Part shown: positions 40,194 to 47,661 of the stretch, piece by piece
Layout of the letters: each line of letters starts with the position of its first letter
Position numbering within the stretch: the stretch's first letter is position 1
Source of the DNA: Chloroflexota bacterium
Lineage (GTDB): Bacteria; Chloroflexota; Anaerolineae; UBA1429
DNA length: 64,000 nucleotides
Direction of reading: 5' to 3'
Assembly (NCBI GenBank): GCA_019873625.1
Contig: JAIOAW010000003.1
Coordinates: 103,675-167,674 of the forward strand
Made by a program: the position numbers and the translations under genes
Notes under the pieces: model-generated
The model's database searches: none
Told to the model about the DNA's origin: nothing
Seen by the model: the letters and a program-made list of their open reading frames with translations, nothing else

Positions 40194-42446
40194 TTAGGGC
40201 TGGTAGTAAAAGAGGATAGTATCTACCTCTTCGAGATCAGGGAGGTCGGCCAATTCGCGGTGGAAGAAGCGCGCCTCCCAATCGGCAATGGTCCCGCCTT
40301 CGCGGATAATCCATTCCTGGAAGGCCTTGACCAGCCCTTGAAACACGTTTTCGCCCGGCTCAAAGCGGTAGAACGATTCGTGGAGGCGCGAAAAGTCGCT
40401 CAGGATGGTGGCGTGCACCCATTGGAGCGCCGGCGCCTGTTCGCCGAGTTCCGTCAGGGCCTGGTGGGCGATTTCGCTCCATTCGTCGGGCGGCAGGTCT
40501 CGCGGGCTGCACACCATCACATAGAGGTGCGCGGTGCGCGGCGGGGCCGAAAGCGCGATGGGGTCGAACACGCCGAGCCGTTGCAGCGCGCCAAAGGCCG
40601 CCGCGCGGATGGCTTGGTCTCCATCCCAAAGGAGCGAGAGGAGCGGTTCTTCGGCGCGGCGGTCGCGCATATCTCCCAGGGCGGTAATGGCCTTCTGGCG
40701 CGTTTCCGCGTCGGGGTCATAGAGCATCGCGATAAAGGCCTCCACGGAGGCCGCCTGGAGGCGTTTGAGCGCTTCGAGTGCGGCGTTGCGCACGTTGCGC
40801 TCGGGGTCCTTGCGAAAGACCGGCAGGAGGATCTCCGTGGCCTGCCCAAGGCCCGAGTAGCCCAAGGCCATCACCGCGCCTTGGCGAGTGTGCCAGTCTT
40901 CGGCCTCGAGGAGGGGCAGGACGCTCGGCAAGGCCTGCTCGCTAAAAGGGCTTAAGGCCTTGGCGGCGGCCTCTTGCACGTTGAGTTCCCAATCCTTCAG
41001 GGCCTCCACCAGGGCAGGGATGGCTCGCGGATCTTTGATCTCGCCCAGGGCGGCCGCAGCTGCCTCGCGCACGGAACGTTCGGGGTCTTTGAGGGCCTGC
41101 AAGAGCGGCTCGAGCGCCTCTTGCCCTGCGATGCGCGCCAAGAGGCCCGCGGCCTCGGCCCGGAGGGCCTTTTGAGGGGCCTGCAAGGCCCCCAAGAGGT
41201 GGGGTACCGCCACAGACCCAATGCGCTCGAGGGCGTTGCGGATGAGGCGCTGTTCGGAGGAGGTGGCCTCCGGTAGGTAATCTAAAAGGACGACCACGGC
41301 CGGCTCGCCGATCTGCACGCACCGCTCCCAGCGCCCTTGGCTGGCCCAATAGCGCGCGGCCGTCTCCGAGCGGTCTGGCTCCCAACCTAAGGCCTTGATG
41401 GCCTCGGCCGCCTTCTGGCGTACGGCATAGTCGCGGTCGCTCAGGGCGCGCACAAAGGCCTCGAGCGAAGAGGGATCGCGCAGGCGCGCCAGGACCTCGA
41501 CCACGGCGCGCCGCACCATCGTGTCGTCATCGTTCACCAAGAGGTTGTTCAAGGCCTGGATGGCCCGTGGGTCCCCCGTTTTGCTCAGGGCCTGCGCGGC
41601 CAGGCGGCGCAGGTTGGCCTGGACGGCCCCCAAGGCGGTGAGGAGGGGCACGACGACGGCCGGCGTGCCGATGCGATCCAAGATAGTGATGGCCGCCTCG
41701 CGGAGCGAGACGCTCTCGAGGCGCAAGAGATCGGCCACGGCGGGAATGCTGCTTTCCCCTCGGACGGCCAAGGCGGCGATGGCCGCCTCGCGCACGTAAT
41801 AGTCGCGATCTTGCAGGGCCTCTATGAGGAAAGCGGTGGCGGCCTCGCCTTCGATTTCGCCCACTACCTCCACCAGGCGCCAGCGAAGGTCGCGGTTTTC
41901 GTCGTTCAGGTAGGGGCGCAGGGTCGGGATGGCCGCTGCACCCATCCGCTTGAGGATGGCCCGCCCCGCCTCGCGCGCGGCGGCATCTTGATGGTAGAGG
42001 AGGGGCACGGCCGCCCGGGCCGCCGCCGCGCCAATGGTGCTCAAAGCGTCCAGCGCGGCCTCGCGCAGATAAGGGCGTTTGCCGCTGCGCACAATCTGGA
42101 CGAGCGGAGGGACGGCGCGCGGATCTTTGACAGCGGCCAGGCTCATCGCCGCCTCTTGGGCGACGGCGTCATCTTGGTCATCGAGTTTGGCGATGAGCGC
42201 TTCGGTCGCCTGGAATTTGCCCACCGCCGCGAGCGATCGCACGGCGGCCTGGCGCACCTCCGGCGCGGGGTCCTCGAGGGTCTCGCGCAAAGCCTTGAGC
42301 ACCTCGGGAGAGGAAAAGGCCGCGAGGGCCTGGGCGGCCGCCGCACGGATGGCGGGATCTCGATCGTAACCCAGGGCCTTGATCAACCCGTCTACATCGG
42401 CCCTTTCGGCCAACCTTTCGACGTTGGGGGGTCTCAAGCCCAGCAT
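40194..42446 (-). CDS. HEAT-repeat protein with unrecognised C-terminal domain
   Basis: A 750-residue protein made of about 20 HEAT/PBS-lyase-like repeats of roughly 31 residues (for example DPRAIPALVEALKDWELNVQ, and repeated AVRQxAAxALxxxG patterns), covering about residues 10-615. A mid-protein linker, LGWEPDRSETAARYWASQ, is a feature shared by other HEAT proteins. The last 130 residues (after RTAHLYVMVCSPRDLPPDE, ending TILFYYQP) are not repeats and I do not recognise them. Probably a binding scaffold. The ATG at 42446 has GGAGGG upstream; a GTG at 42464 would add six residues. It lies 37 bases after panB in the same operon. Confidence 0.85.
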   Translation of the reverse strand: MLGLRPPNVERLAERADVDGLIKALGYDRDPAIRAAAAQALAAFSSPEVLKALRETLEDPAPEVRQAAVRSLAAVGKFQATEALIAKLDDQDDAVAQEAAMSLAAVKDPRAVPPLVQIVRSGKRPYLREAALDALSTIGAAAARAAVPLLYHQDAAAREAGRAILKRMGAAAIPTLRPYLNDENRDLRWRLVEVVGEIEGEAATAFLIEALQDRDYYVREAAIAALAVRGESSIPAVADLLRLESVSLREAAITILDRIGTPAVVVPLLTALGAVQANLRRLAAQALSKTGDPRAIQALNNLLVNDDDTMVRRAVVEVLARLRDPSSLEAFVRALSDRDYAVRQKAAEAIKALGWEPDRSETAARYWASQGRWERCVQIGEPAVVVLLDYLPEATSSEQRLIRNALERIGSVAVPHLLGALQAPQKALRAEAAGLLARIAGQEALEPLLQALKDPERSVREAAAAALGEIKDPRAIPALVEALKDWELNVQEAAAKALSPFSEQALPSVLPLLEAEDWHTRQGAVMALGYSGLGQATEILLPVFRKDPERNVRNAALEALKRLQAASVEAFIAMLYDPDAETRQKAITALGDMRDRRAEEPLLSLLWDGDQAIRAAAFGALQRLGVFDPIALSAPPRTAHLYVMVCSPRDLPPDEWSEIAHQALTELGEQAPALQWVHATILSDFSRLHESFYRFEPGENVFQGLVKAFQEWIIREGGTIADWEARFFHRELADLPDLEEVDTILFYYQP

Positions 42447-42483
42447 AGGCGGTATTCCCTCCACACCTTAATGAGATGGTGTT

Positions 42484-44711: not shown

Positions 44712-45953
44712 TTAGGTGCTAAAGAAGAACATCGTGACCGTGGCGATGCTCACTAGGATGGCTAGAATCGTGGCAAAGATATTCGTGCCGCGGCCGTTGC
44801 GCCAATCTCCCATAATGCGGGGGTTGTTGGCCAGTTTGAGCATAAAGATGAGCACAAAGGGCAGGAGCACCGAGTTCGCCACCTGCGAGAGCCACATCAG
44901 GGGGAAGAGCGGGATGCCCGGGATGAGCACGAGGAGCGTGCTTAGGACGATTTGCGCCGTGTACAAGTTGTAAAAGATGGGCGCCTCGCGGTAACTGCGG
45001 TTGATGCCGCGTTCCCAGCCAAAGGCCTCGCACACGGCGTAAGTGGTGGAAAGGGGCAGCACAGAGGCCGCAAGAAGCGAGGCCCCCAAGAGGCCGATGG
45101 AAAAGAGGAATTCGGCCCATTCGCCAGCGAGGGGGGCCAGGGCGCGGGCGGCCTCCTCGGCGGAATCCACAGCGATGCCGGCCTTGTAAAGCGTGGCGGC
45201 CGTGGCGATGATGATGAACGCCGAGACGATGTTCCCAATGACGGCGCCGACGGAGACATCTAGCCGGGTGTAGGCGAATTCCTCCTTGCGGACGCCCTTG
45301 TCAGCCACGGTGGCCTGCATATAGGCGCATCCCCAGGGCGTGATCGTCGTGCCCACAGTGGCCAGGAGGGCGATGAGGTACTGCCGATCTCGCGAAAAGG
45401 TGGGGATGATGAAATTGTGGGCGATGGCTCCCCAGTCGGGCTTCACGAGGATGGCCGAGGCGATGTAACAGATGGCGTAACTCGCCAAGACGAGGAGCAC
45501 TTTTTCGACATAGCGATAGGACCCCCTCAATACCAGGAACCAGATCATCGCGGCGGCGATGGGCACGGCGATGTACCGCGAGACGCCGAGGAGTTCCGAG
45601 GCCGCCGCGATGCCCGCGAATTGGGCCGCCGTGGTGCCGAAATTGGCGATCATCAACCCCAGCATAATGAGGAACGTCTCGCGAACGCCATACTCCTCGC
45701 GCACGAGGTCAGAAAAGCCCTTGCCCGTTACCGCGCCCATCCGGGCGGCCATCTCCAAAATCACCACTTCACCGAAGGTGATCCACAAAATGACCCATAG
45801 GAAGCGGAAGCCAAAGACGGACCCCGCCATCGAGTAGGTGGCGATGCCAGGGGCGTCATTATCGGCGCTGGAGGTGATCAGCCCTGGCCCCAGGATGGCG
45901 AGAAACATCAAGATACGTTGTCCAATCAACCCAAGCCGCGTGCGCCAGCGCAT
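44712..45953 (-). CDS. Nramp-family divalent metal transporter, NrmT-like (possible Mg2+ transporter)
   Basis: A 413-residue transporter with 11 predicted membrane helices, of the SLC11/Nramp family. The family fold is clear (FLAILGPGLITSSADNDAPG at the start; GEVVILEMAARMGAVTGKGF in helix 2). However, the helix-1 DPGN motif is replaced by DNDAPG (about residues 31-36). The helix-6 MPH motif is replaced by TPWG in GTTITPWGCAYMQ, which loses the soft metal-binding Met. Such changes, as I recall, mark Nramp-related magnesium transporters. The ATG at 45953 has GAGGAGAAA upstream; longer N-terminal frames overlap the previous gene. It is the second gene after a MgtE-N/CBS protein, which supports magnesium or a similar hard metal. 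Confidence 0.85.
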   Translation of the reverse strand: MRWRTRLGLIGQRILMFLAILGPGLITSSADNDAPGIATYSMAGSVFGFRFLWVILWITFGEVVILEMAARMGAVTGKGFSDLVREEYGVRETFLIMLGLMIANFGTTAAQFAGIAAASELLGVSRYIAVPIAAAMIWFLVLRGSYRYVEKVLLVLASYAICYIASAILVKPDWGAIAHNFIIPTFSRDRQYLIALLATVGTTITPWGCAYMQATVADKGVRKEEFAYTRLDVSVGAVIGNIVSAFIIIATAATLYKAGIAVDSAEEAARALAPLAGEWAEFLFSIGLLGASLLAASVLPLSTTYAVCEAFGWERGINRSYREAPIFYNLYTAQIVLSTLLVLIPGIPLFPLMWLSQVANSVLLPFVLIFMLKLANNPRIMGDWRNGRGTNIFATILAILVSIATVTMFFFST

Positions 45954-45991
45954 CGTGTCATTTCTCCTCTCGCGTGGGGTTCGTCGAAAGA

Positions 45992-47245
45992 TCAGAAGAA
46001 GCGCGGGAGGCGTTTCTTCCAAGCGGTGGGGATGAAGGCATCAATGGCATCATCCACGGTGACGATGCCATGGAGGACGTTCTCCTCATCCACCACAGGG
46101 ATGGCTAATAAGTCATACTTGGCCACCAGGCGGGCTACCTCCTCTTGGGGCGTGGACAACTTGACGCGGATGGGGCGCGTGCCGATGAGCCGATCAATGG
46201 GCGTATCCGGGTCCGCCATAACGAGGTCGCGCAGGGTGATGACGCCCTCCAGGTGCCCTTCGTCGTCTATCACATAGACGTAATACATCGTCTCATCCTC
46301 GCGGGCCTCTTCGGAGCGACGCAGGGCCTCCAGGGCCTGGCCGGCCGTCAGGCCGCGGCGGATGGTCGTGTATTCGGTGGTCATAATGCCGCCGGCCGTA
46401 TCGGGCGGGTGGGCGAGGAGTTTTTGGACCTCCTCGGCGTCTTCCGCCTCCATATGATCGAGGATTTCCTCGCGGTCGTCCGGCTCCAGAGTGGCCAAGA
46501 GGTCGGCGGCCTCGTCGGGGTCCATCTCCTCCACCACATCGGCGGCGCGGTCGGGGCCGAGGGTTTCAAGGACGGAGGCCTGGAGGGCCGGCTCGATCTC
46601 CTGCATCGCATCGGCCACGACGGAGGTATCCAGCGAAGAAAGGAGGGCCTGGCCGGCGGGATAGTCCAACTCATTCACGATGTTGGCCAAATCTGCCGGG
46701 TGCAAGCGGCTGAGGCGGTCTCGCGAGATGCGCAGGCGGATGGGCGCCCCGCTTTCCACAGGGGCCACATCGCGCCAAGGGATGACCACGCCGGGCACCG
46801 GCCGGCCCAACGTGGTGGCCACGCGCTCGACGATCCGTTCGGCCCCCATGCGGCGCGCCAGGCCGAGCGACCCCACATCAACCGCGGCCAGGCAGTAATG
46901 CCCATTGGGCCGGATGATCTGCAAGTCGTTCACGCGCACCACACGGCGGCCCTCGGTATCCACAATTTGGCGATCCAGCACCTGGCGGCGCAGATAGAGT
47001 TCATCCCCCTTGGGGATGTAGGGGATGGGCTTGGTCACTTTGAGGATGATGGATGGGGTGAGCCAAGCGACGTCTGCCGCGGAGACGAGCAGCGTCTCTT
47101 GCTTTTCGCGCGCCACCGCCAAGGCGCGCAGGGGCGGCAGGGCCTTTTCGGTCTCTGCCACGAGGACGTCCACACATCGGCCAAGGCGTTCGCCTTGAGC
47201 ATCCCAAACGGGGCGGTCGAGAATACGGCTTAACCACATCGCCAT
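45992..47245 (-). CDS. Soluble PRC-barrel/MgtE-N/CBS-pair protein lacking the MgtE membrane domain
   Basis: A 417-residue protein. Two PRC-barrel-like segments (about residues 3-85 and 86-165) precede an MgtE N domain of short acidic helical repeats (about 180-285: LHPADLANIVNELDY, PDRAADVVEEMDPDEAADLL). A CBS pair follows (about 290-405, with TAGGIMTTEYTTI, VYVIDDEGHLEGVITLRDL and LLAIPVVDEENVLHGIVTVD). True MgtE continues into a five-helix channel; here the protein stops after CBS with no hydrophobic helix. MgtE N and CBS domains are known Mg2+ sensors that gate the channel. I infer that this one regulates the co-transcribed Nramp transporter. The ATG at 47245 has a strong GGAAGGAGG site. 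Confidence 0.85.
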   Translation of the reverse strand: MAMWLSRILDRPVWDAQGERLGRCVDVLVAETEKALPPLRALAVAREKQETLLVSAADVAWLTPSIILKVTKPIPYIPKGDELYLRRQVLDRQIVDTEGRRVVRVNDLQIIRPNGHYCLAAVDVGSLGLARRMGAERIVERVATTLGRPVPGVVIPWRDVAPVESGAPIRLRISRDRLSRLHPADLANIVNELDYPAGQALLSSLDTSVVADAMQEIEPALQASVLETLGPDRAADVVEEMDPDEAADLLATLEPDDREEILDHMEAEDAEEVQKLLAHPPDTAGGIMTTEYTTIRRGLTAGQALEALRRSEEAREDETMYYVYVIDDEGHLEGVITLRDLVMADPDTPIDRLIGTRPIRVKLSTPQEEVARLVAKYDLLAIPVVDEENVLHGIVTVDDAIDAFIPTAWKKRLPRFF

Positions 47246-47304
47246 AGGGCACCTCCTTCCGCGCAGAGGTTTAGGCGGTCCCAGGGGCCACGGAATGCCC
47301 ATAC

Positions 47305-47332
47305 AAAAAGGCCGCAGCAGCAAGCTGCGGCC
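47305..47332 (-). terminator. Intrinsic terminator inside the metal-transport leader
   Basis: On the minus strand, GGCCGCAGC-TTGCT-GCTGCGGCC followed by TTTTT lies 60 bases upstream of the MgtE_N-CBS start. It lies between promoter and gene, so it is probably an attenuator. Confidence 0.85.
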
Positions 47333-47509
47333 TTGAACACGCGTCGGAGGCGCCGACGTGGTCAGCGCGGCTTGACTGCTTTAGGGAGGTAGGTTTTTCC
47401 GTGAACCCGCAAGGCCGTCGGTACTATCTACGTTCGGACTTGAACTTTCGGCTTCCATCGCTCTTTCGTCACCGTGCATCGCGCCAGGTTGGGTGAGTAG
47501 GCGCGGCTC
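47305..47509 (-). ncRNA. Structured riboswitch-like leader RNA of unknown class
   Basis: About 205 nt between a good promoter and the attenuator. Visible helices (given on the plus strand): CGCGCC/GGCGCG (47480-47485 with 47500-47505), a GCCG/CGGC stem enclosing a GUUC/GAAC hairpin (mid-leader), and CGTCGG/CCGACG (47342-47347 with 47353-47358) just before the terminator. The minus-strand word AGCCGCGC occurs twice (47501-47508 and 47365-47372). Both copies can pair with the same GGCGCG segment, a possible switch. I do not find the GUUAGGUGAGGCU core of the M-box, the GGGGAGUAG core of yybP-ykoY, or other cores I remember. Ligand unknown; Mg2+ or another divalent metal is inferred from the genes. 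Confidence 0.55.
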
Positions 47510-47515
47510 GCAGGC

Positions 47516-47543
47516 ATTATAGGCCAAATGAACAAGCGGTCAA
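47516..47543 (-). promoter_or_regulatory. Promoter of the riboswitch-like leader and MgtE_N-CBS/Nramp operon
   Basis: Minus-strand TTGACC (47538-47543), a 16-bp spacer and a perfect TATAAT (47516-47521). The 455-base gap between the MgtE_N-CBS gene and the tRNA holds this promoter, the leader, the attenuator, an AATGATCATT palindrome (47585-47594) and the tRNA promoter. Confidence 0.75.
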
Positions 47544-47661
47544 GTCAGCAAGTTTCACCGAGGGTGCCCTGGTGTGTCAACTCAAATGATCATTGTACCG
47601 GGGAAGGAAGGTTCACTCAATGGATCATAATACTGGGCTGAAGGGGCCTGAGAGGGGCGAT

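Follow-up and report, generated by a model that had tools for sequence, protein, structure and literature searches.

Organisation of the locus

The window, namely the whole stretch of 64,000 nucleotides of Chloroflexota DNA that was analysed, carries two minus-strand open reading frames (ORFs) with a spacing of 38 nt, at the coordinates that the initial annotation had given (44712-47245). The upstream gene encodes a soluble MgtE-type sensor of 417 aa that starts with ATG behind the ribosome-binding site GGAGGTG, and the downstream gene encodes an Nramp-type transporter. A short leader ORF with promoter-like and terminator-like sites precedes the pair. The features are as follows:

47516..47543, minus strand: sigma-70-like promoter TTGACC-16-TATAAT upstream of the leader ORF (sequence match)
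47381..47458, minus strand: leader ORF of 25 aa, MEAESSSPNVDSTDGLAGSRKNLPP, with an acidic start and a Pro-Pro-stop end, at the same position in near relatives
47303..47334, minus strand: intrinsic-terminator-like GC hairpin, AAGGCCGCAGC-TTGCT-GCTGCGGCCTT plus a T run, in the interval between leader ORF and sensor gene
45992..47245, minus strand: soluble sensor gene with two PRC-type domains, MgtE_N, a CBS pair and a basic C-terminal tail, without a channel
46400..46705, minus strand: MgtE_N (residues 181-282), with D212, D244 and D248 as equivalents of the Mg7, Mg4 and Mg6 ligands of T. thermophilus MgtE
46034..46393, minus strand: CBS pair (residues ~285-404), with D378, D399 and D402 as equivalents of Mg5, Mg4 and Mg5 ligands, respectively
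45995..46030, minus strand: basic tail PTAWKKRLPRFF (residues 406-417), where MgtE has the plug helix with Mg2/Mg3 ligands
44712..45953, minus strand: NRMT-type Nramp transporter of 413 aa (Pfam, motifs and an AF2 model with pLDDT 90)
45846..45863, minus strand: TM1 metal-site motif DNDAPG (D33xxG36)
45333..45350, minus strand: TM6 metal-site motif TTITPW (T202xxT205)

Elsewhere in the window, a 756-aa ORF unrelated to the pair (40194-42464, minus strand) looks by eye like a series of HEAT-type repeats with a distinct C-terminal part.

Transporter type and Mg2+ transporter inventory

The transporter matched Nramp in Pfam (9.2e-95) and carries DxxG in TM1 (D33-A-P-G36) and TxxA/T in TM6 (T202-T-I-T205, followed by P-W), the combination that defines the NRMT clade (PMC8806188). 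The initial annotation had pointed out the DNDAPG and TPWG motifs and had related the protein to Mg2+ transporters of the Nramp type with altered motifs, and both statements agree with the NRMT signature and the best PDB match. This match was the Mg2+ transporter EleNRMT (7qia, 351.7 bits over a 394-residue alignment), followed by a structure with 96.9 bits; the PDB bit scores place the protein nearer NRMTs than MntH/DMT Nramps. Its metal site lacks the soft Met ligand. Gln111 occupies the position of EleNRMT helix-3 Glu133, near the metal site; Glu was found here in 46 of 56 aligned sequences, and Gln only in the window protein and its two nearest relatives among those sampled. A second NRMT-like branch (L049, L041, L044 and L050; ~35% identity) also has DxxG-TxxA and bears C-terminal extensions of ~100 aa, which gave no Pfam match in the two members scanned.

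The genome of the window is 97.6% complete and encodes one Nramp and one MgtE_N protein. Other classical Mg2+ importers are absent: a profile search of the genome gave no hit for CorA or the MgtE channel, and none for an MgtA-type ATPase that passed the curated cut-off. One CNNM protein is also present. Mg2+ is the likeliest cargo because the host has neither CorA nor an MgtE channel and no MgtA above cut-off, and we consider this assignment, made from sequence, highly probable. Across the phylum, MgtE channels were rarer in genomes with close NRMTs (19/104 vs 76/197, Fisher p = 2.6e-4, kinship ignored), and the difference for CorA or MgtE combined was not significant (p = 0.07).

Soluble MgtE-type sensor

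Pfam assigned MgtE_N (1.9e-24) and two CBS domains to the sensor, and neither a TM segment nor the MgtE channel domain PF01769 was detected by Pfam and a TM scan of the 417-aa protein. The N-terminal part, scanned separately, contains a PRC barrel above cut-off (22.5 vs 21.2 bits), a homologue (L080) has two PRC matches, and the AF2 model (pLDDT 90) shows two consecutive beta-rich domains at the N-terminal end. The best structural match of this model was the cytosolic part of MgtE (2yvy, E 5e-23). The domain order initially read from the letters, MgtE_N plus a CBS pair with two PRC-like segments and without the membrane channel, was thus recovered by Pfam, PRC scan, AF2 and TM scan.

The Mg2+ ligand positions of MgtE (PMC5882242) were mapped onto the sensor and its homologues (n = 44). 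In MgtE_N, D212 stands at the position of E59 and is acidic in 40/44 homologues, D244 stands at that of D91 and is Asp in 40/44, and D248 stands at that of D95 and is kept in 44/44; in the CBS pair, D247 corresponds to D399 (kept in 43/44), D250 to D402 (acidic in 37/44) and D226 to D378, which is Asp in the window protein and Asn in most homologues. The Mg4-Mg7 ligand positions are acidic in the sensor, and the plug-helix Mg2/Mg3 ligands are missing. In place of the plug helix (E258/D259), there is a conserved and usually basic tail, which may contact the membrane or the NRMT. The sensor has L379 where MgtE has the ATP-stacking Phe227; a sensor-specific loss of ATP sensing was rejected because Leu also occurs in 6/7 canonical MgtEs fetched from this phylum.

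Linkage of sensor and NRMT genes

The listed matches of sensor and NRMT were compared in 301 genomes of the phylum. Among the matches listed, a sensor lies within 3 kb of 81 of the best 120 NRMT matches, and it is directly upstream on the same strand in 73 of them, including 68 within 217 nt. About one-third of the best 120 have no sensor within 3 kb among the matches listed; some of these are contig ends, and one (G235) is divided by the end of a contig. In a set of 80 NRMT loci from Chloroflexota, Nitrospirota, Firmicutes, Omnitrophota, Acidobacteria, Deltaproteobacteria and others, the sensor is upstream on the same strand in 61. The survey of co-occurrence and gene order that had been suggested at the outset thus revealed strong linkage, and a sensor that is always unlinked from NRMT is at odds with this linkage across many phyla. 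The partnership of sensor and transporter proposed in the initial annotation is well supported by this genomic context; however, it is not new (PMC4072509), and the genes are not always adjacent. In the window's own family, one genome (G136) has them on separate contigs; they are also unlinked in G270, and G283 has a sensor with no NRMT match among the matches listed.

No single chain combining sensor and NRMT was found in the phylum survey or in the 80 loci across phyla, and long open frames that resembled such fusions were overlapping frames on inspection. A fixed alternative partner for unlinked sensors was also discarded, given that the scanned neighbours were housekeeping genes with no common transporter. 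M-box elements precede homologous sensor-NRMT pairs in Firmicutes (L126, L140, L123 and L077) and in an Actinomycetes-labelled MAG (L080); an Rfam scan of the window found neither the M-box (RF00380) nor another riboswitch upstream of the operon. Two neighbourhoods were recorded separately. In G297 (L051, 3644-7709), three consecutive genes encode the sensor, the NRMT and a full-length MgtE of the canonical kind that retains its pore Asp, and in Clostridium pascui, an NRMT under M-box control has two fluoride riboswitches (L116, 528-586 and 1305-1364) within a few kb.

MgtE-type proteins with PRC barrels

In some proteins (e.g. in G124), one chain unites PRC barrels with MgtE_N, CBS and a membrane part of the MgtE type. 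Twelve such PRC-bearing proteins were compared with seven MgtEs without PRC. The pore Asp432 is missing in 12/12 of the former, being replaced by Ala, Gly or Met, and is kept in 7/7 of the latter; the independent cases number fewer than 12 because 10/12 belong to one family. The GGN-type filter is likewise missing in 12/12, and the plug-helix residues E258/D259 are kept. T. thermophilus MgtE with a mutation at Asp432 no longer conducts Mg2+ (PMC5882242), and the PRC-bearing forms without the pore Asp are probably non-conducting.

Two of the 12 are encoded directly upstream of an NRMT gene, in G015 (L154) and in a Coriobacteriales MAG (L078). A probably non-conducting channel with a kept sensor beside an NRMT would, we argue, have only a regulatory role remaining. 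In the Coriobacteriales locus (L078, 2030-3937), the NRMT-adjacent sensor retains a membrane part too diverged for a Pfam MgtE channel match. A tree of the MgtE_N-CBS core, inferred using a quick method with the root assumed on canonical MgtEs and with weak branch support, separated canonical, pseudo-channel and soluble forms into three groups (support 92, 79 and 67). These sequences fit a sensor lineage that would have lost conduction first and the channel domain later; they are just as compatible with the soluble form having arisen as a sister group.

Leader ORF, promoter and terminator

Near relatives have a short ORF of 24-43 aa at the corresponding place, such as MDEDNSNSDKAAVSDDLAGAGEDDPPR, MDTDSSSSHIHTGSDDLASYQTNIPP and METDSSNSHIATSSDDPASYQETHPP. 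A fixed rule, which asks for an acidic second residue and for two or more acidic residues in positions 2-8, was applied to 35 close loci with 100 dinucleotide shuffles. A leader ORF satisfying the rule was found in 18/35 loci vs 0.96 expected (shuffle maximum 4; reverse strand 0), in a test on related rather than independent loci that was not fully blind because the rule was set after the first examples were known. In 33 hand-selected leader ORFs, acidic residues in codons 2-12 averaged 2.97 in frame, and the two alternative frames gave 0.36 and 0.55; since acidity was part of the basis for picking this set, the fixed rule provides the fairer test. Codon 2 is GAC in 12, GAA in 11 and GAT in 2 leaders, thereby retaining the acidic property despite codon change. 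Family f2 has three ATG starts and, read by eye, two apparent TTG starts, with an AGGAGG-type site ahead of all five. Repeated AGT-AGT codons suggest some nucleotide-level conservation, and the third-position bias of the leader ORFs is modest.

Of the 35 close loci, 18 have a terminator-like hairpin, where mononucleotide shuffles predict 0.04; promoter-like sites stand upstream of the leader ORF in 16/33 loci, the latter by regular-expression match alone with no shuffle baseline. A short leader ORF with acidic residues near its start, as in mgtL and mgtQ, is thus present. As for alternative RNA structures, the terminator is there; a conserved antiterminator, in which the leader ORF would pair with a terminator arm, was not detected (z ~0), and in most loci the pairing did not surpass that of shuffled sequences. 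Applied to the remainder of the class (2/36), the phylum (1/32) and other phyla (0/50), the rule gave no excess over chance, and no such leader was seen ahead of the unlinked NRMT of G136 or the CNNM gene of the window's genome. The conservation in close loci makes it very likely that the leader acts as a real cis-regulator, and by analogy with known leaders its response to Mg2+ is somewhat favoured.

A 79-nt stretch upstream of the promoter (47566-47644, minus strand) recurs about six times elsewhere in the genome at 83-93% identity, with one of these copies only 27 nt long. One copy lies upstream of the CNNM gene; the stretch includes two similar internal repeats and looks like a dispersed intergenic element. 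An operator common to the operon and the CNNM gene was rejected, and no Mg2+ regulon is claimed, because the 73-nt match between them belongs to this element.

Proposed mechanism and alternatives

We propose, at odds slightly better than even, a self-limiting Mg2+ import operon with sensor feedback and leader control. The NRMT would import Mg2+, and the soluble PRC-MgtE_N-CBS protein would use its MgtE-derived ligand cluster to bind Mg2+ in the cytosol. At high Mg2+, the sensor would lower NRMT activity, possibly by docking at the inner face through its C-terminal tail, which would stand in for the MgtE plug helix. The acidic leader ORF and the terminator would provide a second level of control, on expression: at low Mg2+, ribosomes would drop off the acidic leader peptide and the operon would be read through, and at high Mg2+, the leader would be translated and transcription terminated, a scheme reported for mgtL and, as regards the acidic residues, for mgtQ. 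Regulation of the NRMT by the sensor is the probable case. More tentatively, and with less than an even chance, the Anaerolineae NRMT may be placed under two Mg2+ sensors, the acidic leader with its intrinsic terminator and a detached MgtE sensor descended via non-conducting PRC-bearing pseudo-MgtEs, so that an MgtE would have been turned into a regulatory subunit for a transporter outside its own superfamily.

Precedents exist for the NRMT being mainly a Mn2+ importer and its MgtE-like partner a Mn2+ sensor: the NrmT of A. capsulatum, whose gene neighbours one for an MgtE fragment, resembled a Mn2+ importer in its behaviour (PMC4072509), and EleNRMT also carries Mn2+ (PMC8806188). However, this would leave the genome with one CNNM protein as its only recognised candidate for Mg2+ import, and the missing Met ligand, the M-box control of related pairs and the likeness of the leader to those of Mg2+ transporters all speak against it; we regard a Mn2+ system as quite improbable. 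A weightier, still rather unlikely possibility is that sensor and NRMT are co-expressed as a Mg2+ response without contact, the sensor being a Mg2+ buffer, a chaperone or a regulator of another target. The unlinked genes in G136 and G270 and the sensor without listed NRMT match in G283 would suit such an arrangement, as would complementation results in which the sensor was dispensable for NRMT transport (PMC4072509). Against co-expression without contact stand the tight gene order conserved over many phyla and the dead-channel MgtE forms that adjoin NRMT. In the one published co-expression, the MgtE fragment of A. capsulatum gave no better Mg2+ rescue (PMC4072509), which weighs against the self-limiting operon proposed here.

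The leader may also be conserved as an RNA element, such as an undescribed riboswitch or a protein-binding site, in which the ORF is incidental. The repeated AGT-AGT codons, the modest third-position bias and the antiterminator partner missing from the pairing scan are in line with this explanation; yet the acidic enrichment is confined to the ORF frame, Asp and Glu codons exchange at position 2 and AGGAGG-type sites stand before the start codons in family f2, and we regard an RNA element as unlikely.

Comparison with known systems

Most NrmT genes adjoin a gene for an MgtE cytosolic domain, and cytoplasmic feedback regulation has been proposed for them (Shin et al. 2014, PMC4072509); the central idea of the initial annotation had therefore already been published. 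The window shares with these operons both genes, their neighbourhood and the proposed feedback role. In C. acetobutylicum, the NrmT-MgtE-like operon is under an M-box (PMC4072509), whereas the Chloroflexota window has a leader ORF with a terminator instead of an M-box, and its sensor has a basic tail for the plug helix. The leader attenuator and the dead-channel lineage are thus what would be new over the published pair. Both the PRC-bearing MgtEs without pore Asp and the acidic leader with terminator appear to be undescribed; a literature search reaching few subscription journals found no paper on an acidic leader for NRMT or in Chloroflexota. The PRC-bearing forms may offer a direct handle on the role of the MgtE-like fragment, which has been at issue since 2014.

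The transporter resembles EleNRMT (7qia, PMC8806188) in its DxxG-TxxA/T site and the lost Met ligand and differs from it in Thr205 instead of Ala in TM6 and Gln111 instead of Glu133 in helix 3. The sensor shares with T. thermophilus MgtE (2yvx, 2zy9) the MgtE_N and CBS module and most cytosolic Mg2+ ligands; in contrast, it has neither channel nor plug helix and bears two additional N-terminal PRC-type domains.

In enterobacteria, ribosomes are destabilised by the acidic codons in mgtQ, which control mgtB (PMC8092293), and acidic and proline residues of mgtL couple translation to Mg2+ (PMC11552253). With the leader ORF and terminator described here, control of Mg2+ transport by acidic leaders would reach a distant phylum and a further transporter class. 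Like mgtL, mgtQ and corL (PMC8092293, PMC11552253), the window-type leaders are short ORFs upstream of a Mg2+ transport gene with acidic residues near the start, where mgtL also has proline; unlike them, they are longer (24-43 aa), often end in Pro-Pro-stop, occur in Chloroflexota and lie ahead of an intrinsic terminator, not of a known Rho site.
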